Shown here: piece after piece, positions 1 to 7,752 of the stretch
How the letters are laid out: each line of letters begins with the position of its first letter
Numbering within the stretch: the stretch's first letter is position 1
Assembly (NCBI GenBank): GCA_021819255.1
Contig: JAKART010000037.1
Span: 1 to 10,907, forward strand
DNA from: Acidobacteriota bacterium
Lineage (GTDB): Bacteria; Acidobacteriota; Terriglobia; Terriglobales; Acidobacteriaceae
Reading direction: 5' to 3'
DNA length: 10,907 nucleotides
Program-made: the position numbers and the translations under genes
Notes under the pieces: model-generated
What the model was told of the DNA's origin: nothing
The model's input: the letters and a program-made list of their open reading frames with translations, nothing else
Databases searched by the model: none

Positions 1-2
1 GG

Positions 3-287
3 ACGCCCAAGTATCGCGTGCAGAAGAAGGGCGAAAGGTCGCAGGCGCGCAAGTACCGCAAGCGTCTGGGCATCATTCCCTGGATCGAGATCGCCATCGG
101 CGTCTACTTCGCCGCCACGGTCTGGTACGCCGTGACCACGGAGAACTACTTCACCGTGCCCTTTCTGCTGCTGTTCGTGCTGGGCTACTGGTACACCGGC
201 CTGCTGAGCATCTTTCAGGGCCTGTTCGAGCGCAAGGGCGCCGCTGGCGGTGACCTGCACGAGAAGCCCTACCCGGTGGGCATCTGA
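3..287 (+). CDS. Membrane glycosyltransferase (family 2-like), C-terminal end, partial
   Basis: The reading frame is open from the first complete codon at position 3 and ends at TGA 285-287, so the gene starts outside the window. The visible ~94 residues begin TPKYRVQKKGER, a basic juxtamembrane stretch. Two hydrophobic segments follow (around IPWIEIAIGVYFAATVWYAV and FTVPFLLLFVLGYWYTGLL), then a short charged tail. A TPKY-type basic motif followed by two final transmembrane helices is typical of the C-terminus of processive, cellulose-synthase-like GT2 glycosyltransferases that make or export polysaccharide at the inner membrane. The catalytic domain is not in view, so the assignment rests on the tail alone. 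The GTG at position 18 is an internal valine codon and not a convincing start, because the same frame stays coding-like upstream of it. Confidence 0.6.
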   Translation, partial: TPKYRVQKKGERSQARKYRKRLGIIPWIEIAIGVYFAATVWYAVTTENYFTVPFLLLFVLGYWYTGLLSIFQGLFERKGAAGGDLHEKPYPVGI

Positions 288-322
288 CGCAACCTCCAAA
301 ACCTGACGCAGCTTCAAAGACC
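285..322 (+). repeat. Two imperfect tandem 19-bp copies after the glycosyltransferase stop
   Basis: TGACGCAACCTCCAAAACC (285-303) is followed directly by TGACGCAGCTTCAAAGACC (304-322), with 15 of 19 bases identical. The first copy starts on the stop codon itself. This looks like a small local duplication of the gene end. No T-tract or stable stem accompanies it, so it is not an obvious terminator. The rest of 323-427 shows no gene or strong signal. Confidence 0.45.
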
Positions 323-427
323 AGCCTCCGGCTCCCGCAGCGATGGCCGGCAGACCCAGATTCGGATGCGCGGTGGTGACGCCCACCGGACATTTCATGT
401 GCTAACGACAATCCTTTCGTCGTCCGC

Positions 428-456
428 TTGCCAACAAAAGGATGATGCACTATTCT
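428..456 (+). promoter_or_regulatory. Candidate sigma70 promoter of the fic gene
   Basis: TTGCCA at 428-433 (5 of 6 to the -35 consensus) and TATTCT at 451-456 (4 of 6 to the -10 consensus) are separated by exactly 17 bases. Transcription would start near 463, giving a leader of about 25 bases before the GTG start at 488. The -10 box lies inside the left arm of the palindrome at 451-485, an arrangement that suits repression. Confidence 0.55.
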
Positions 457-485
457 TTCGTTACTCGAAAATTAGCGAAAGGATA
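451..485 (+). promoter_or_regulatory. Palindrome over the fic -10 box and ribosome binding site (candidate operator)
   Basis: The left arm TATTCTTTCGTTA (451-463) and right arm TAGCGAAAGGATA (473-485) are inverted copies with 11 of 13 positions complementary. The two mismatches are G-T pairs, so as RNA all 13 positions could pair around a 9-base loop. The left arm covers the -10 box and the right arm covers the Shine-Dalgarno-like AAAGGA (478-483). A further half-site, ATCCTTTCG, lies at 411-419, 41 bases upstream of the corresponding left-arm bases. The Fic protein carries a C-terminal winged-helix-like segment, so autoregulation at this site is a plausible inference. Confidence 0.5.
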
Positions 486-487
486 CC

Positions 488-1663
488 GTGCCAGAAACCG
501 AACCGTCCGCCCGACCAGGCCGCTATATCCTCAAGCAGTTTGAGGGCGAGACTGTTCGAGCCTTCGTGCCGCCATCGTTGCCGCCTGTGCCGCCGGTGGA
601 TCTGGCGCGGTTTCAGATAATCCTAGAACAGGCCAATCAGGCCATTGGCAGGCTGGACGGCCTAGCCTCGCTCCTGCCCGACCTGTCGCTGCTCCTTTAT
701 ACATACGTTCGCAAGGAGGCCGTGCTCTCGTCCCAGATCGAAGGCACCCAATCGTCCCTCTCGGACCTTCTGCTCTACGAGAACGATGAGGCGCCGGGAG
801 TGCCCATCGAGGATGTGCAGGAGGTCTCGAACTACGTCGCAGCCATGAATCATGGCTTGGAGCGAATCCGTTCCGGCTTCCCGCTCAGTTTGCGATTGAT
901 TCGGGAGATTCACGAAATCCTGCTCTCTAAAGGAAGAGGCAGCGGCAAGCAGCCCGGCGAATTTCGTCGCAGCCAAAATTGGATCGGCGGCAGCCGCCCA
1001 GGAAATGCGGTATTCGTTCCGCCGCCCCCGGAACATCTGAATGAGTGCCTCAGCCAATTCGAACTGTTCCTCCATAACGAGCACACAGGTTTGCCCCTGC
1101 TGATTCGAGCGGGCCTTGCGCATGTGCAGTTTGAGACCATCCACCCATTTCTCGACGGCAATGGAAGACTTGGACGACTCCTGATTACATTCTTGCTTTG
1201 TGCGGAATGTGCGCTCAGAGAGCCGATCCTCTACCTCAGCCTCTACTTCAAAACCAATCGAGCCGCATATTACGAATTGCTGGACCGCGTGCGAAGCAAA
1301 GGCGATTGGGAAGCCTGGCTTGATTTTTTCCTGATTGGCGTGCGCGACACCGCTGACCAGGCTGCCAAAGCGGCGCGCGAAATCCTAGACATGTTCGACC
1401 ACGATCGGAAGAAGATCGAGACGCTCGGCAGACCCGCTGCCTCCGTGCTGCGCGTCTTCCAACACATGCAGCGAAACCCGATCATTGCGATTCCATCAAC
1501 GGCCAAGCGTATTGGCATCTCCGCGCCCACGGTTGCAAAGTCGCTTGCTCATATGATCGATCTCGGCATCCTCGAAGAGACCACCGGCCGTGAGCGGCAT
1601 CGCCTCTTCGTCTATCGTCGCTATCTGGACATTTTGAATGAAGGAACCGAGCCACTGCGGTGA
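488..1663 (+). CDS. Fic family protein (AMPylase-type) with C-terminal winged helix
   Basis: A full-length 391-residue Fic protein. Such enzymes transfer AMP or a related nucleotide moiety from a nucleotide to a hydroxyl side chain of a target protein. The canonical core motif HPFLDGNGRLGR is at residues 219-230, with catalytic His219, acidic Asp223 and Arg227/Arg230 present. An inhibitory-helix motif of the (S/T)xxxE(G/N) type, SSQIEG at 81-86, lies N-terminal to the core. This makes it a self-inhibited class II-type protein whose Glu85 would block productive ATP binding. The order is an N-terminal Fic_N-like region (~25-110), the Fic core (~135-235), and a helix-turn-helix/winged-helix-like segment (~320-385, around TAKRIGISAPTVAKSLAHM). 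The C-terminus ending LNEGTEPL looks natural for the family. The GTG start is supported by GAAAGGA at 477-483 and by agreement with the promoter. Base composition is lower in GC than the flanks, which suggests transfer. The target is unknown; regulator or defence/toxin roles are both possible. Confidence 0.9.
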   Translation: MPETEPSARPGRYILKQFEGETVRAFVPPSLPPVPPVDLARFQIILEQANQAIGRLDGLASLLPDLSLLLYTYVRKEAVLSSQIEGTQSSLSDLLLYENDEAPGVPIEDVQEVSNYVAAMNHGLERIRSGFPLSLRLIREIHEILLSKGRGSGKQPGEFRRSQNWIGGSRPGNAVFVPPPPEHLNECLSQFELFLHNEHTGLPLLIRAGLAHVQFETIHPFLDGNGRLGRLLITFLLCAECALREPILYLSLYFKTNRAAYYELLDRVRSKGDWEAWLDFFLIGVRDTADQAAKAAREILDMFDHDRKKIETLGRPAASVLRVFQHMQRNPIIAIPSTAKRIGISAPTVAKSLAHMIDLGILEETTGRERHRLFVYRRYLDILNEGTEPLR

Positions 1664-1667
1664 GCCA

Positions 1668-1674
1668 AGGAGGT
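1668..1674 (+). promoter_or_regulatory. Strong ribosome binding site with no canonical start codon behind it
   Basis: AGGAGGT begins 5 bases after the fic stop codon (1661-1663). In the frame of the downstream helicase relic the first possible start is the rare ATT at 1685-1687, 11 bases away; no in-frame ATG, GTG or TTG lies within usual range. This looks like the preserved ribosome binding site of a downstream cistron whose 5' coding part has been lost. Confidence 0.45.
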
Positions 1675-1684
1675 ATATCCGGTA

Positions 1685-1873
1685 ATTTCGATCGCACACC
1701 AACGCGCACTCAAGGCACTGCAAGCTACGCGCAATCAAAAGCGTAAGGACCTCTTTATCGCCCAGGATGAAGTCGAGTCTCGCCGTGATGCTCTCATCGC
1801 AGACATCGAGGCTCGCATGACCAAAGATCAAAAGGAAGAAACCCTGTTTCGAATTCGCTGGAGCTTGAAATGA
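1685..1873 (+). pseudogene. C-terminal relic of a SNF2/DEAD-type defence helicase
   Basis: An open stretch in the same frame as fic, directly behind its stop codon, gives about 62 residues (ISIAHQRALKALQATRNQK..., ...LFIAQDEVESRRDALIADIE..., ending LFRIRWSLK) and stops at TGA 1871-1873. The pattern KRxxLFxAQDExxxRRDxLIxxIE, followed by a short LFxIRWxL end, resembles the coiled-coil C-terminus of large RapA/SNF2-like DEAD/DEAH helicases found in phage-defence operons. That is recognition from memory, not a search. No helicase motif (Walker A, DExH) remains and no normal start codon is available, so the gene has lost most of its 5' part. The stop overlaps the start of the next gene (ATGA, 1870-1873), preserving the old operon junction and coupling. 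An alternative is a genuine small protein with an ATT start. Confidence 0.55.
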
Positions 1874-3165
1874 CCGCAATCGCCGAACCCACAATTATCT
1901 GCCCGAAGTGCAAGACTGAAATTCCGCTCACTGAGTCACTAGCAGCACCGTTGCTGGAGGCGACTCGCAGGCAGTATGAGAGGAAGCTATCGCAAAAGGA
2001 CAAGGAGATTGGGCAGCGTGAGGAGGCGTTGCGCGATAAGGAGAAGAAAGTCGCCGACGCGAAGCGCAAGCTAGACCAGCAGGTTGCCGAACAGGTTGCT
2101 GAGCAAGTGAAGGTAGAACGGTCACGGATTGCAGCAGAGGAATCTAAGAAAGCGAAGCTTGTCAGCGCCGCAGAGATTGAATCAAAGAGCCGTGAAGTCG
2201 AGGGGCTCAAGGAAGTTCTCGCAGCGAACAATCAAAAACTGGCCGAAGCGCAAAAGGCTCAGACCGAACTCCTCAAGAAGCAACGCGAATTAGATGACGC
2301 AAAGCGGGAACTTGATCTCACCGTTGAAAAGCGGGTTCAGGAAAACCTCAGTGAAGTGCGGACCCAAGCCAAGCGGGAAGCAGAAGAGGCGGAGCGGTTG
2401 AAGGTCGCCGAGAGAGACCAGAAGATCGCCTCCATGCAGCGCACGATAGAAGAACTTCAGAGGAAAGCCGAGCAGGGCTCACAGCAGCTCCAGGGTGAAG
2501 TTCAGGAACTTGAAGTCGAAAACCTGCTCCGTGCAAAGTTCCCGTATGACACCATTGAACCGGTTCCAAAAGGTGAGTTCGGAGGCGACACGATTCAACG
2601 AGTTGTCAGTCCGGCCGGCGTCATGGCTGGGGCCATCCTCTGGGAGTCCAAGAGGACGAAAAACTGGAGCAACGGCTGGCTGGCTAAACTGCGCGAAGAT
2701 CAGAGGACCGCAAAAGCCGAGATCTCCATCCTTATCTCGCAGGCTCTACCCGAGGGCGTTGAAACCTTCGATGTAATCGATGGGGTATGGGTCGCGCACC
2801 CGCGCGTCCTGATCCCGGTTGCGACCGTGCTCCGAAACACGCTCCTTGAAGTCAGCACTGCCCGTCTCATCAACGAAGGGCAGCAAACGAAGGCTGAAAT
2901 GGTCTATCAGTACCTGACCGGGCCGCGCTTCCGTCAGCGCGTAGAGGCCATCGTCGAGGCATTTTCTGGTATGCAGGAAGACCTCGATAAAGAACGGAAG
3001 GCCATCATGAAGCAGTGGGCAAAGCGTTCAGAGCAAATCGAGCGCGTCATGGGAGCCACCGTGGGCATGTATGGAGATCTACAGGGTATTGCTGGGAAAT
3101 CAATTCAGGAGATCGAAGGACTTGAACTCAAGGCGTTGGCCGCCGGGGAAAATATTGTCGCCTAA
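1870..3165 (+). CDS. DUF2130 domain protein: coiled coil plus nuclease-like C-terminal domain
   Basis: A 431-residue protein that looks intact. The N-terminus has one CPKC knuckle (Cys11, Cys14), a half zinc-ribbon. Residues ~30-215 form a very long charged coiled coil rich in K, E, Q and A, including a VAEQVAEQV repeat at 72-80. The C-terminal part (~215-400) matches the DUF2130 family, with FGGDTIQRV (237-245), ILWESKRTKNW (256-266) and QALPEGVETF (291-300). Asp240 followed by Glu259-Ser-Lys261 fits the D...ExK spacing of PD-(D/E)XK nucleases, so a DNA-cleaving or DNA-binding role is a reasonable inference; family function is not established here. The ATG at 1870 overlaps the helicase relic stop, so translation was probably coupled. 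The next gene starts 20 bases downstream. Family members are often annotated only as DUF2130, which is the safe name. Confidence 0.85.
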   Translation: MTAIAEPTIICPKCKTEIPLTESLAAPLLEATRRQYERKLSQKDKEIGQREEALRDKEKKVADAKRKLDQQVAEQVAEQVKVERSRIAAEESKKAKLVSAAEIESKSREVEGLKEVLAANNQKLAEAQKAQTELLKKQRELDDAKRELDLTVEKRVQENLSEVRTQAKREAEEAERLKVAERDQKIASMQRTIEELQRKAEQGSQQLQGEVQELEVENLLRAKFPYDTIEPVPKGEFGGDTIQRVVSPAGVMAGAILWESKRTKNWSNGWLAKLREDQRTAKAEISILISQALPEGVETFDVIDGVWVAHPRVLIPVATVLRNTLLEVSTARLINEGQQTKAEMVYQYLTGPRFRQRVEAIVEAFSGMQEDLDKERKAIMKQWAKRSEQIERVMGATVGMYGDLQGIAGKSIQEIEGLELKALAAGENIVA

Positions 3166-3172
3166 AGATTTC

Positions 3173-3179
3173 AGAGGAG
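3173..3179 (+). promoter_or_regulatory. Ribosome binding site of the SIR2-like gene
   Basis: AGAGGAG lies 6 bases before the ATG at 3186, in the 20-base gap after the DUF2130 stop codon (TAA 3163-3165). It fixes the start of the next gene and shows that it was an operon partner. Confidence 0.6.
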
Positions 3180-3185
3180 TCACCA

Positions 3186-3785
3186 ATGGCAAATGTACAA
3201 GGTAGTGCGACACAGAAGAAAGCGGACCGGCAGCTATTGAAGATTCGCGAAATGCGAGAAACTCTTGAATTCGACTTTGAGACGGACAAGGTTGGAAATG
3301 ACATCTTTAAGCCGACCAACTCATCGCCTGGATTTGAGAAGGACAGCTACCGCGCCTCGGATTTGCATAAGGAACTTGAGCCTTGGCTGACTGCGCTTTT
3401 TCAAAGCGAGCACCTGTCGCTGTTGGCAGGTGCGGGCCTCACAACTGCGGTCCACCATCATGTCACCGGCAGCGCTCCAGGAGGATTCGCTTGCCGGAAT
3501 TACGCGACTTTTGATGCACAGATCAAAGCTGAAGCAAAGCGGTCAGCCGAGGAAATGGGACCGCGGCGCGTGGGTTCCAGCGGCTTGACGCAAGCGGCGC
3601 GGAGGTCGAGGTGGGCCAGGACGCAAGGAACTTCCGCCAGCCTGTGGAGGGCAAGCTGTACATCCGTAGCCTCGCCTTTACAGGCTTCTCCAAATGCATC
3701 TACGCCGCGGCCAAGTTCGACTCAGACACGGAACGGCGCTTCGCCACGGTCCTGGAGGACGACGCCGATGTGGCAAAGTGGCTGA
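3186..3785 (+). pseudogene. N-terminal fragment of a SIR2-like protein, frame broken near 3560
   Basis: The first ~125 residues are protein-like. A charged N-terminal segment (LKIREMRETLEFDFETD, GNDIFKPTN, SYRASDLHKELEPWLTALF) leads into LSLLAGAGLTTAVHHHVTG at 77-95. A hydrophobic strand followed by GAG(L/S) is how the NAD-binding Rossmann core of SIR2-type proteins begins; in bacterial defence these are NADases, often next to HerA/DUF87 ATPases. After EEMG (to about 3560) the frame turns into a low-complexity R/S/T/W-rich string ending at 3785, while a different frame becomes strongly coding (the restriction-gene fragment). The gene is therefore truncated: no NADase catalytic region survives. 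The ribosome binding site and position after DUF2130 indicate former co-expression. The SIR2 assignment is from the short glycine motif and remembered family look, hence moderate confidence; the truncation itself is clear. Confidence 0.55.
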
Positions 3786-4054
3786 GGCCGTCAAGGGACC
3801 TGCTGAGGATTCATTACAATGAGGACGACAACTACAACCCCGATTTCATCGTAGAGACAAAGAGCGGCAGGTTCCTCTGCGAGATCAAGCGGGCCAGCCA
3901 GATGGATGACGCTGTGGTTCAGAAGAAGGCCAAAGCCGCGACCCAGTGGTGTGAACGGGCATCCGAAGTGAGCGACAAGCCTTGGCGCTATGCTCTGATT
4001 CCCCACGATGTGGTCCAGATCAGCCGAACCTTCCGGAGCCTTGTTGGATCGTGA
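3561..4054 (+). pseudogene. C-terminal PD-(D/E)XK domain of a type III restriction/helicase subunit, 5' truncated
   Basis: In the frame of GTG 3611, coding character already begins before that codon (GFQRLDASGAEVEVGQD from about 3572). It continues through FTGFSKCIYAAAKFDSDTER, KWLRP and NYNPDFIVETKSGRFLCEIK to a natural stop at 4052-4054. The Pro-Asp (Asp codon 3842-3844) followed 12 residues later by Glu-Ile-Lys (Glu codon 3881-3883) is a complete PD-(D/E)XK active site. This arrangement, with KFDSDTERRFA upstream and AAxxWC downstream, is the C-terminal nuclease region of type III restriction (Res) or related DEAD/DEAH helicase-nucleases. The whole helicase part is missing, so the piece is a deletion remnant joined to the SIR2-like fragment in another frame. 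It could still be translated alone: GGAGGT (3601-3606) sits 4 bases before the GTG at 3611, giving a 147-residue protein. Confidence 0.65.
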
Positions 4055-4116
4055 CTACGGTTCGGACTGCTACCTCCTTTCTGCGCCCCGTTACGCCAGC
4101 GGGAATCTGTCATGAT

Positions 4117-4147
4117 AGCAGCGTTGCTCGCCTTCAATGACGCTGCT
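4117..4147. terminator. Hairpin between convergent genes, possible bidirectional terminator
   Basis: AGCAGCGT (4117-4124) and ACGCTGCT (4140-4147) form a perfect 8-bp stem with a 15-base loop. It lies between the end of the restriction-gene fragment (+ strand) and the end of the permease gene (- strand). No T-run follows on either strand, so an intrinsic terminator function is uncertain. Confidence 0.3.
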
Positions 4148-4201
4148 TCGGCGCCTCCCGCTCCTTCGTCGTGGCACCCCAAAGTTGATCCGAGCTTCCG
4201 C

Positions 4202-4228
4202 AGGCGACGCTGGAGGCGTCGTGCGCCT
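4202..4228. repeat. Second GC-rich hairpin in the 4055-4274 intergenic region
   Basis: CGACGC (4205-4210) pairs with GCGTCG (4216-4221) around TGGAG, with AGG/CCT able to extend the outside through a bulge. It lies about 50 bases past the permease stop on the minus strand. It may help to end that transcript, but no T-tract follows. The rest of 4055-4274 holds no coding sequence that I recognise. Confidence 0.25.
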
Positions 4229-4274
4229 GATGCCCGGCGTTGAGCGGCTGCGGAGACCTACCCTGAGCGCGGCA

Positions 4275-5624
4275 TCAGTGGACGTGTGAGACGGCCAGCG
4301 TGAGCAGCAGCGCGGTGACGGAGATGATGGTTTCGCAGATGGACCAGGTTTTCAGGGTCTGCGGAACGCTCATGTTGAAGTACTGCTTGACCAGCCAGAA
4401 TCCGCCATCGTTGACGTGCGAGAAGATGAGCGAGCCGGCCCCGGCGGCGATGGCCAGCAGTTCCGGATGCGGATAGGCGGTAGCCAGCGCCACCGGAGCC
4501 ACCATGCCGGCCGCGGTGACCATGGCCACGGTGGCCGAACCCGTGGCGAGTCGCATCACGGCGGCCAGCAGCCAGACCAGCAACAGCAGCGAAACGTGGC
4601 TCCGGGTGGCCAGCCCGACGATGGCGTGAGCCACGCCGCTGTCCTGGAGAACGCGGCCAAAGCCGCCGCCGGCGCCCACCAGCAGAGTGATCAGAGCCGT
4701 GGGCGCAAGGCACTCCTGGCTGAACTGCAGGATCGTCTGGCGCTGGAAACCACGCATCCTGCCCAGGGTCTGGAAGCTCACCAGAACGCCCAGCAGCAGG
4801 GCCAGGTCGTCGTTGCCCAACAGACCCAGCACCCGGCCGAACAGGCCGGCATGGCCGCCCGCCGCTCCGGCGATGCTGCCGAAGGCCAGCAGAAAGACCG
4901 GCAGAAGAAGGGTGAACAGGGTGAGGTTGAAGCCGGGCAGGCTGCTCTCCGCCCCGTGATCGACAAACTGCTCCGCCATGGGATTTTCCGCCGGCAGCTC
5001 GATATGCGGCGCGACCAGCCGGGCATAGACGGGGCCGGCGAGGATGGCTGTGGGTATGCCGATCAGCAGAGCGTACAACATCGTGCGGCCCATCCCGGCC
5101 TTGAAGATGGACACCGCCATCACCGCCGCCGGATGGGGCGGCGTCAGGCCCTGATCCACCGACAGACCGGCCAGCAGAGGCAACGCCACCTCCACCAGCG
5201 ACTTGCCCGTGCGGCGCGCCACGGTATACGCGATGGGGATGAGCAGAACGAACCCGACTTCAAAAAAGCACGGCAGGCCAACCACCAGCCCGATGGCCAT
5301 CATCGCCCAGGCGATGCGCCGGTGGCCGAAGACGCGAATCATGGTGTGCGCGATCTGGTCGGCTCCGCCGGACTCAGCCAGCATCTTGCCCAGCATGGTT
5401 CCCAGGGCGACGATGATGGCGATGTGCCCAAGCGTTGCGCCCATGCCCGACTCGAAGGAGCGTACTCCGGCGGCGAAGGGCATGCCCGCGGCCAGCGCCA
5501 GGGCCAGGGAGACGACAAACAGCGTGAGGAACGGGTTCAGCTTGAAGAGCGCGATCAGCACGATGAGGCCGATGACGGCGATCAGCCCGGCGATCAACAG
5601 AAAGGTGCTGTGAGGATCGATCAT
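4275..5624 (-). CDS. GntP-family permease (gluconate:H+ symporter type)
   Basis: A 449-residue polytopic inner-membrane protein, the usual GntP/GntT length, with about 12 or more hydrophobic segments spread along it. Family signatures are clear: GLPCFFEVGFVLLIP at 116-130, GLTPPHPAAVMAV at 159-171, GAGGGFGRVLQDSG at 317-330, MRLATGSATVAM at 357-368 and HVNDGGFWLVKQYF at 403-416. Members import gluconate, idonate or related sugar acids with protons; the substrate cannot be chosen from sequence alone. The start at 5624 (MIDPHSTFLL) is preferred because it places the first transmembrane helix at the N-terminus. An upstream ATG at 5744 would add 40 polar, Pro/Arg-rich residues through an inverted-repeat region and lacks a ribosome binding site. 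The site for 5624 is weak (AGGA 13 bases upstream). No gluconate kinase or regulator gene is adjacent. It is convergent with the defence island and divergent from the AsmA-like gene. Confidence 0.9.
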   Translation of the reverse strand: MIDPHSTFLLIAGLIAVIGLIVLIALFKLNPFLTLFVVSLALALAAGMPFAAGVRSFESGMGATLGHIAIIVALGTMLGKMLAESGGADQIAHTMIRVFGHRRIAWAMMAIGLVVGLPCFFEVGFVLLIPIAYTVARRTGKSLVEVALPLLAGLSVDQGLTPPHPAAVMAVSIFKAGMGRTMLYALLIGIPTAILAGPVYARLVAPHIELPAENPMAEQFVDHGAESSLPGFNLTLFTLLLPVFLLAFGSIAGAAGGHAGLFGRVLGLLGNDDLALLLGVLVSFQTLGRMRGFQRQTILQFSQECLAPTALITLLVGAGGGFGRVLQDSGVAHAIVGLATRSHVSLLLLVWLLAAVMRLATGSATVAMVTAAGMVAPVALATAYPHPELLAIAAGAGSLIFSHVNDGGFWLVKQYFNMSVPQTLKTWSICETIISVTALLLTLAVSHVH

Positions 5625-5689
5625 CGCTGGATTTTCGTCCTGGCGTGGAGGCCCGGCAGCCGCTGGAAAAGGCGCATTGGAGAACAGTA

Positions 5690-5801
5690 GACCATTTTCC
5701 CTGATGATGGGCGTACGGAAGCGGGCGTTCCGTGGCGTTTTCATTGAGGAAAACGCCCACAGGAGTCGTTCCCCTCGCTTACACCTTCAGGGAAAATGGT
5801 C
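5690..5801 (-). promoter_or_regulatory. Nested inverted-repeat element upstream of the permease (candidate structured leader RNA)
   Basis: GACCATTTTCCCTGA (5690-5704) and TCAGGGAAAATGGTC (5787-5801) are a perfect 15-bp inverted repeat. Inside it are two further hairpins: ACGGAA (5715-5720) with TTCCGT (5728-5733), and GCGTTTTC (5735-5742) with GAAAACGC (5749-5756). The latter is extendable by GTG (5732-5734) and CAC (5758-5760) across a one-base bulge. As RNA this gives a long closing helix over a multi-branch junction. It lies 66 to 177 bases upstream of the permease start on the permease's own strand, so a cis-regulatory leader is a fair inference. A protein operator pair or a small transposable remnant are alternatives. 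No known riboswitch class was recognised. Confidence 0.5.
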
Positions 5802-6087: not shown

Positions 6088-6120
6088 TACAATTCCATCG
6101 AATCTGTTTGCGAGGAGGAG
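6088..6120 (+). promoter_or_regulatory. -10-like box and ribosome binding site of the AsmA-like gene
   Basis: TACAAT at 6088-6093 (5 of 6 to consensus) would start transcription near 6100. A convincing -35 is missing: TTGAGC at 6062-6067 is 20 bases away. GAGGAGGAG at 6112-6120 is a strong ribosome binding site 6 bases before the ATG at 6127 and fixes that start. Confidence 0.45.
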
Positions 6121-6126
6121 AGCCCC

Positions 6127-7752
6127 ATGCAAAGACGCTGGTTGAAACCCCTGATTGCGGTCGCCGTTTTGTTCGTCGCCGTCCTGGTGCTGGTTCTGTT
6201 TTTCGTCAACGCCGACACCTTCCGGCCCACGATCGAGAGCGAGCTCTCCAGCGCGCTGGGGCGCAAGGTGACGCTGGGCCACCTGGGTCTGTCGCTGCTG
6301 ACCGGGAGCCTGGTGGCGGATAACATCTCCATTGCGGACGATCCGGCGTTTTCCACCGCTCCTTTTCTGGACGCCAAGGAGCTGCGGATCGGCGTGGAGC
6401 TGGGCCGGCTTCTCTTCCATCACTCGCTGCAGGTGACGGACCTCATCATCAAGTCGCCCTCCATTCAACTGATTCACGCGGCCAATGGAGCCTGGAACTT
6501 CTCTACCCTGGGCGGCGCGGCGGCCAAGCCTGCGCCGGCGCCGGCGTCAGGGAACGCGATTCCGGCGCTCACCGTGAATAAACTGGCGATTGAGAATGGC
6601 AGCGCCGTGCTCTCTTCGCTGCCGGCTGACGGCAAGCCCCTGCAGTGTACCGACGTGAACTTGACCGTCACGCAGTTTTCGCCCACCGCGTCGTTTCCCT
6701 TCACGCTTTCGTTACAGGTTCCCGGCGGCGGAAGTCTGAACCTGAAGGGCGCGGCGGGACCGCTGGCGCAGAACGACGCCTCGCTCACCCCATTCCACGC
6801 GACCATCTTGGTGAAGCACTTTGACCCGGTGGCCGCGGGGGCGATTCAGGCCGCCGACGGCATCTCCATGGTGGCGGACATGGACGCTCAGGTGGCCTCG
6901 CAGGATGCGAAGATGACCGCTTCCGGCAAGGCGAAGGCGACGCAACTGAAGCTGGCGGCAAACGGAGTGCCCGCTCCCCGGCCCGTGGATCTCAACTTCA
7001 ATCTGGCCGATGATCTCTCCTCGCGCAACGGCCAGGTGAACGATCTGGCGATCGTCACCGGCGCGGTTGCGGCGCACATCACCGGGACATTCCAGCAGAC
7101 TGGAACGGAGCCGAGCGTGAATCTGCAGCTTGCGGCGCCCCACCTTCCGGTGGACCAGGTGGAGCAGTTGCTGCCCGCGGCGGGAGTGGTGCTGCCGAGC
7201 GGCTCCCGTCTGCAGGGCGGCACCATCAACGCCAATCTTGCGATCAGCGGCCCGGTGAACGGTCTGACGATTGCCGGGCCGATCGAGCTGGATAACAGCC
7301 AACTGACCGGGTTCGATCTGGGAGGCGAGATTCAGGGCATTCATCCGCTCGCCGACACCTCGGGCGGCACGGAGATTCAAAAGCTCGCCGCGGTGGTGAA
7401 CAACTCGCCGCAGGGCACAAGCTTCCAAAACATCGACGCCGAGATTCCCAAGATCGGCAGCGCGACCGGCCAGGGGACGATCTCTCCCTCTCCCACCGAG
7501 GCGCTGAACTTTCAGATGAGCGCCAAGATTGCCGCGCTTTCGGCGGTGGGCGGAGCTGTGGACAAGCTCTTCGGCGGTGGTTCCTCCTCTTCTTCGAACT
7601 CGGGTGGCGGCGTTCCGCTGACGGTGACGGGAACGGCATCCCATCCGTCCATCCATGCCGACCTGGGACAGATGTTCAAGAGCGCGACGAACGGAGTGGT
7701 GAACAACACCGGAATCAAGAAATCCATGAAGTCGCTGAAGGGATTGTTCTGA
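6127..7752 (+). CDS. AsmA-like family protein, membrane anchored
   Basis: A 541-residue protein with a single N-terminal membrane anchor (residues ~8-28, a run of L, V, A and F after MQRRWLKP) and a large periplasmic part. The start of the soluble part, TFRPTIESELSSALGRKVTLGHLGLSLLTGSLVADNISIADDP (31-73), is the classic AsmA opening: an amphipathic helix, the GRKV(T/D)LG strand and a lipid-groove-type beta repeat. Further repeats of the same type follow. An Ala/Pro linker lies at ~131-142, and a Gly/Ser-rich linker (GGGSSSSSNSGGG, 483-495) precedes a final VTGTASHPSIHADL strand (500-513) and a basic amphipathic C-terminus (KKSMKSLKGLF). AsmA-family proteins are related to bridge-like lipid-transfer proteins and act in envelope or outer-membrane homeostasis. 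At 541 residues this is a mid-sized member. It is likely monocistronic: a 116-base gap follows it, and the next gene pair is functionally unrelated. Confidence 0.85.
   Translation: MQRRWLKPLIAVAVLFVAVLVLVLFFVNADTFRPTIESELSSALGRKVTLGHLGLSLLTGSLVADNISIADDPAFSTAPFLDAKELRIGVELGRLLFHHSLQVTDLIIKSPSIQLIHAANGAWNFSTLGGAAAKPAPAPASGNAIPALTVNKLAIENGSAVLSSLPADGKPLQCTDVNLTVTQFSPTASFPFTLSLQVPGGGSLNLKGAAGPLAQNDASLTPFHATILVKHFDPVAAGAIQAADGISMVADMDAQVASQDAKMTASGKAKATQLKLAANGVPAPRPVDLNFNLADDLSSRNGQVNDLAIVTGAVAAHITGTFQQTGTEPSVNLQLAAPHLPVDQVEQLLPAAGVVLPSGSRLQGGTINANLAISGPVNGLTIAGPIELDNSQLTGFDLGGEIQGIHPLADTSGGTEIQKLAAVVNNSPQGTSFQNIDAEIPKIGSATGQGTISPSPTEALNFQMSAKIAALSAVGGAVDKLFGGGSSSSSNSGGGVPLTVTGTASHPSIHADLGQMFKSATNGVVNNTGIKKSMKSLKGLF

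Follow-up and report, generated by a model that had tools for sequence, protein, structure and literature searches.

The window analysed here, 10,907 nucleotides long, is the entire contig C359 of an acidobacterial genome assembled in 465 contigs at 67% completeness. It carries a block that is very probably what remains of a single composite restriction operon, [Fic]–SNF2 helicase–DUF2130–SIR2–(HerA)–type III Mod–Res, acquired horizontally and shortened by two deletions. Within positions 1664–4054 only the DUF2130 gene is full length; a helicase tail (~58 codons), a SIR2 head and a Res tail surround it at operon spacing (Table 1). All four pieces had been named in a first-pass annotation made from the sequence alone, and all are present, as indicated by Pfam and PADLOC models and, for the helicase tail, by relatives. 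Their extents needed adjustment: the helicase frame has no ATG, GTG or TTG before 1817, and the Res remnant begins at ~3560, ~50 bases ahead of GTG 3611. The list of pieces, correct for 1664–4054, had also left out the intact Fic gene (488–1663) directly upstream. The claim that overlaps and ribosome binding sites are kept was borne out, as the helicase stop shares an ATGA with the start of DUF2130 and an AGAGGAG stands ahead of the SIR2 ATG (3186). Neither the Rfam nor the tRNA scan of the window gave a match.

Table 1 Features of the window
Feature	Position	Strand	Basis or remark
End of small gene	3–287		
Fic gene, full length	488–1663	+	PF13784/PF02661; SoFic, 400 bits; motifs
SNF2-type helicase, C-terminal tail	1664–1873	+	Homologous from ~1691–1697 to L018 codons ~904–963 of 963
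Deletion junction 1	1690–1702		Leader following Fic fused to helicase codon ~906; comparison with L019
DUF2130 gene, intact, 431 aa	1870–3165	+	PF09903, E = 5.3e-80
SIR2-like N-terminal head, ~125 codons	3186 to ~3560	+	PADLOC PDLC04079
Deletion junction 2	3557–3566		SIR2 codon ~125 fused to Res codon ~730; alignment of L021 18771 starts at window 3566; reading frames
Type III Res, C-terminal endonuclease part, ~165 codons	~3561–4054	+	PADLOC REase_III; PDF...CEIK kept; first usual start GTG 3611
gntP (other strand), DUF748/AsmA-type gene, molybdopterin-binding oxidoreductase	Beyond Res tail		
Acquired block (insert)	300–4230		Without counterpart in same-genus genome (L153)

The site of insertion was identified by comparison with a genome of the same genus (G464, locus L153), in which the flanks lie 42 bp apart versus 3,938 bp in the window. 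L153 matches window 1–292 at 98.6% and 4231–5690 at 95.1%; the comparison was located through gntP, the AsmA-like gene being of no use for the flanks. This empty site therefore shows that the whole block, Fic through Res, is an insertion. Its GC content is 56.4% (300–4230) versus 65.1% outside. A search of the insert ends with 10-base words revealed neither direct nor inverted repeats. In the relative L018, a MobF relaxase and a TraD-type coupling protein lie upstream of the helicase, with homologues in L021 and L023, and such neighbours are in line with a mobile origin.

The helicase tail itself matched nothing in Pfam, PADLOC or NCBIfam. It aligns to the C-terminus of open frames of 942–1164 codons in four of 247 phylum genomes besides its own, and is 95% identical to L018 over 60 aa. 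Because the full-length L018 gene encodes an SNF2-type helicase (PF00176/PF00271), we assign the remnant to that type. Comparison with L019 resolved junction 1: window 1501–1696, comprising the Fic end and the leader, corresponds to L019 6844–7037, and window 1697–3137 to L019 9828–11268; therefore ~2.8 kb, encoding the helicase to codon ~905, is missing from the window. The breakpoint lies at ~1696/1697, with a few bases of possible microhomology. The first 200 bases past it are 97–100% identical to L018, but identity falls to 78–90% over most of the DUF2130 second half, a sign of recombination. L019 retains the last 53 Fic codons ahead of its helicase with an alignable leader, suggesting that the Fic–helicase adjacency predates the window. 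The Fic tail of L019 is another broken end of such a block; at ~6100–7003 it directly follows the start of an unrelated protein, 'secreted-type' by eye.

At junction 2, the SIR2 head (PADLOC model PDLC04079, E = 6.4e-15, residues 49–125) reaches codon 125 at 3558–3560, and its frame stays open past its own sequence to 3785. Res homology starts at ~3560–3566, equivalent to codon ~730 of 893 in L021. SIR2 relatives P0004 and P0005 continue beyond this breakpoint, and the FTTNYD stretch of the family is gone from the window. The Res tail matches PADLOC REase_III (E = 1.1e-35) at model positions 713–860 of 871; Pfam returned a TnsA-like match, with RE_endonuc just below cut-off. Junction 2 removed the rest of SIR2, Mod and 729 Res codons, and probably HerA as well; HerA and Mod are assigned to the ancestor because relatives carry them, and no base of either is left in the window. 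Reduction by internal deletions, as proposed in the first-pass annotation, is thereby located to the base at the helicase end and to within ~10 bases at the Res end. A GGAGG (window 3601–3613) stands a few bases before GTG 3611, and together they could allow separate translation of a putative 147-aa Res nuclease end.

The SIR2 of the window belongs to a different clade from those of L021 and L043, and tblastn of the L021 protein against the window head gave no match. Window-clade SIR2 was followed by HerA in all three loci scanned (L011, L145 and L146). A search of 397 genomes of the order found it in two other genomes, both with SIR2 and HerA, and no DUF2130 or Mod match was seen in the stretch around the pair. 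One metagenome protein, P0009, has DUF2130 joined to a window-type SIR2 head. Viral contigs scanned with the head yielded no relative. In L011 (5282–12286), HsdM and HsdS of a type I R-M operon flank the window-clade SIR2 and HerA.

The order of the relic exists intact elsewhere. A DUF2130 scan of a species-genome collection gave 180 loci, of which the best 80 were kept. Among these best 80, 77 had an open DUF2130 frame, 20 a helicase piece upstream and 22 Mod or Res downstream. In 14 of the best 80, SNF2 helicase, DUF2130, type III Mod and Res follow in order on one strand, DUF2130 and Mod being separated by a variable cassette; some gene is split, shortened or doubled in four of the 14 (L031, L035, L045 and L055). 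SIR2 directly follows DUF2130 in nine of the best 80, with HerA next in eight. In L021 and L043 the order is helicase, DUF2130, SIR2, HerA, Mod and Res, with SIR2 and HerA confirmed by PADLOC models, so full-length homologues of all four window pieces do co-occur in the order seen here, which was the check proposed earlier. The ancestral system envisaged at that stage holds as to gene order; the lost genes include Mod and probably HerA, neither of which it listed, and the SIR2 clade differs, no complete operon with window-clade SIR2 being found among the intact loci. Its supposed novelty is narrowed to, at most, the combination, since each part belongs to a known family; searches of open PMC texts turned up no publication on such an operon. 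The most fitting description of the ancestor is a type III-like R-M operon that includes an SNF2 helicase, DUF2130 and an exchangeable cassette of effectors.

In the slot that separates DUF2130 from Mod, L018, L022 and L024 have AAA_13 ATPases (PADLOC PDC-S06 group), L065 has a TrlF-family ATPase (698 bits, cut-off 350), and L044, L045 and L055 have AAA_15/OLD-like ATPases. L077 also has a TrlF-family ATPase (365 bits, cut-off 350), but no Mod was seen there. The L018 Mod matches PF01555 and MTase_III (PDLC03636, 767 bits), and the L021 Res matches REase_III (PDLC03648, 776 bits). The best PADLOC labels of the scanned L018 and L021 proteins are DrmD, PDC-S06, SIR2, HerA, MTase_III and REase_III.

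The helicase also occurs with Mod and Res apart from DUF2130. In all four phylum loci found via the helicase tail, Mod and Res homologues follow (Mod 51–63% and Res 38–60% identical to those of L018/L021; both broken in L015), and the slot is occupied by other genes. Seven of 247 evenly drawn phylum genomes have the helicase and 13 have DUF2130 over cut-off; the overlap is zero, and DUF2130 is therefore optional. Among plasmids, 42 records match the helicase, and in each of six regions opened a methylase and a DEAD/DEAH protein are annotated beside it. Close homologues of Mod (51–66%) and Res (45%) are present in only two of the six (Deinococcus and Paracoccus). The methylases of the Cupriavidus, Rhizobium, Conchiformibius and Aeromonas plasmids are 27–30% like Mod over part of their length, and their DEAD/DEAH proteins match Res weakly or, in three, not at 1e-15. 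The helicase therefore also pairs with other methylases. Gap cargo is annotated in three of the six: AIPR, a regulator and VapC (Deinococcus), DUF262 (Rhizobium), and an AAA ATPase with DUF4276 (Aeromonas). The Conchiformibius order is methylase, DEAD/DEAH, helicase.

Could the block be something other than a decayed operon? Separate insertions of unrelated fragments side by side in a defence island would be compatible with the promiscuity of Fic and with DUF2130 and the helicase often being apart, but order, strand and the ATGA overlap are as in intact operons and the broken ends are collinear along them; L021 and L043 largely refute this explanation, which we regard as highly improbable. An assembly artefact, in which the contig joins parts of one intact operon, or parts from two strains, and the genome may still hold a working system, is also improbable. 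The fragmented, incomplete assembly and the lack of internal stops in the helicase and Res tails speak for it. Against it, junction 1 has a few bases of possible overlap and no long repeat, the outer block ends are continuous with chromosomal genes as in L153, and the 67% complete assembly yields no full-length helicase elsewhere at E ≤ 1e-60.

The reduced block might instead be functional, with DUF2130, perhaps together with Fic and the free Res end, kept as a minimal nuclease module. DUF2130 is intact with all its signature residues, the Res remnant retains a PD...ExK stretch, and a DUF2130 cluster at 99% identity is recorded with nine contigs. In addition, a blastp panel was applied to the 47 DUF2130 loci that reach at least 3 kb ahead of the gene and at least 8 kb beyond it, and it found the full core in 13, any core gene in 19, and no helicase, Mod or Res in the other 28; in L042, L046, L048 and L053, DUF2130 stands beside SIR2 and HerA only. 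However, survival of DUF2130 is built in, the loci having been found through it. Its dN/dS (0.045–0.059 against four of five loci, the fifth not computable) is pairwise and mostly reflects time before the collapse, and the SIR2 head and helicase tail lack catalytic parts. We consider this reading unlikely. In the favoured reading, that of a decayed operon, one internal deletion removed helicase codons 1 to ~905, and the other, which took Mod with it, removed everything between SIR2 codon ~126 and Res codon ~729. Judged from its gene content, the window most likely no longer restricts DNA because Mod and the helicase motor are gone along with most of Res, and whole proteins could still come only from DUF2130 and Fic.

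In the intact relatives, family knowledge suggests that Mod would mark self DNA and that Res, with the SNF2 helicase, would restrict unmarked DNA. DUF2130 may be a DNA nuclease acting with the ATPase of the slot, and the slot might provide a second-line effector that becomes active once restriction fails. The SIR2–HerA cassette would act by NAD depletion; AAA_13, TrlF and AAA_15/OLD-like ATPases would be alternative slot effectors.

Similar to type III R-M systems, L018 and L021 carry Mod and Res adjacent on one strand, and the window retains the Res endonuclease end. The relatives differ in having an SNF2 helicase, DUF2130 and cargo within the operon, and their Res scores 91 bits versus the NCBI BPTD_3080 cut-off of 800; the window lacks the Res motor, and Pfam and PADLOC detected no methylase among the scanned pieces of its block. 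As in class 1 DISARM, the helicase scores best on DrmD models (PADLOC 642, NCBIfam 650 bits), but the latter score is below the NCBI DrmD cut-off of 950 and the methylase is a type III Mod; neither DrmA, DrmB nor DrmC was the best label of any scanned L018 or L021 operon protein. SIR2 (PDLC04094) and HerA (PDLC04105) are adjacent in L021 and L043 as in SIR2–HerA systems, except that the pair sits inside an R-M operon, whereas the window has only a SIR2 head of the PDLC04079 clade, without NYD and without HerA. Passages of PMC11090510 describe type III-A CoCoNuTs as extended operons with ancillary defence genes on a restriction core with a McrBC-type GTPase. As far as those passages go, ancillary defence genes in one operon and coiled-coil and PD-(D/E)xK parts are shared, and the McrBC-type GTPase core contrasts with Mod/Res here; these passages make no mention of DUF2130 (PMC11090510).

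The DUF2130 protein of the window scores 268.8 bits on PF09903 (Pfam cut-off 26.7). Its features are a CxxC, a long coiled coil and a putative PD-(D/E)xK-like domain at residues ~202–329. D240, E259 and K261 (D-x18-ExK) are invariant in alignments of 34 and of 30 rows and lie beside and on strands 241–246 and 252–261 of the predicted model, in which the fold may be PD-(D/E)xK-like. With phmmer against PDB sequences, the single match had E = 0.84, and PADLOC models gave weak matches only, the best being a ZorA model at 25 bits. DUF2130 is a candidate defence nuclease, judging by its motifs and by neighbourhoods counted without a random-gene control. The family is named in only three papers among the open PMC texts searched. 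In L129 (8005–15762), DUF2130 lies directly before, and overlaps, Cmr1, followed by Cas10 and more Cmr-like genes, and is possibly an ancillary nuclease of that type III CRISPR operon. L132 (8366–17281) has DUF2130 near a ZorA–ZorB–ZorC–ZorD set on the opposite strand, and in L131 (8385–11593) an AbiEi–AbiEii pair comes after it. Short Mod-like fragments (86–160 aa) lie downstream of DUF2130 in L036, L049, L064 and L084; operons like these may decay repeatedly, although loci selected through DUF2130 are a biased sample.

A broader reading, which we put forward tentatively and hold to be rather doubtful, is that SNF2 helicase–[slot]–Mod–[slot]–Res is an undescribed modular R-M class whose gaps dock exchangeable abortive-infection effectors. 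DUF2130 would then be a general nuclease partner that plugs ATPase effectors (SIR2 with HerA, AAA_13, TrlF, OLD-like) into restriction operons, type I R-M (L126, L128 and L130), type III CRISPR (L129) and possibly Zorya (L132). If the main reading of the block and its intact relatives is right, restriction operons would hold replaceable second defences in fixed slots, helping to explain the same effectors within unrelated systems and offering a natural swap set; DUF2130 would be highlighted as a probable defence nuclease. The window provides a view of how such an operon decays.

The Fic gene is intact, with a PF02661 match. Its HPFLDGNGRLGR motif (at 219) fits the AMPylase motif HxFx(D/E)GNGRxxR, and SSQIEG is also present. 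Fic genes are frequent in the order, with matches at E ≤ 1e-140 in 25 of 298 genomes (own included), and have varied followers elsewhere; in none of 11 other Fic loci compared does the match extend more than ~10 bases beyond the stop. We assign Fic to the acquired block and do not count it among the core genes. A second Fic, 87% identical, was found in the same genome at G000:C216:927–2096. Just ahead of Fic, window 448–482 holds a palindromic TTTCGTTA...AGCGAAAGGATA element, which suggests possible autoregulation by the C-terminal helix-turn-helix of Fic. Similar CTTTCGTT...CGAAAGG repeats were seen by eye before Fic in seven of the 11 other loci.
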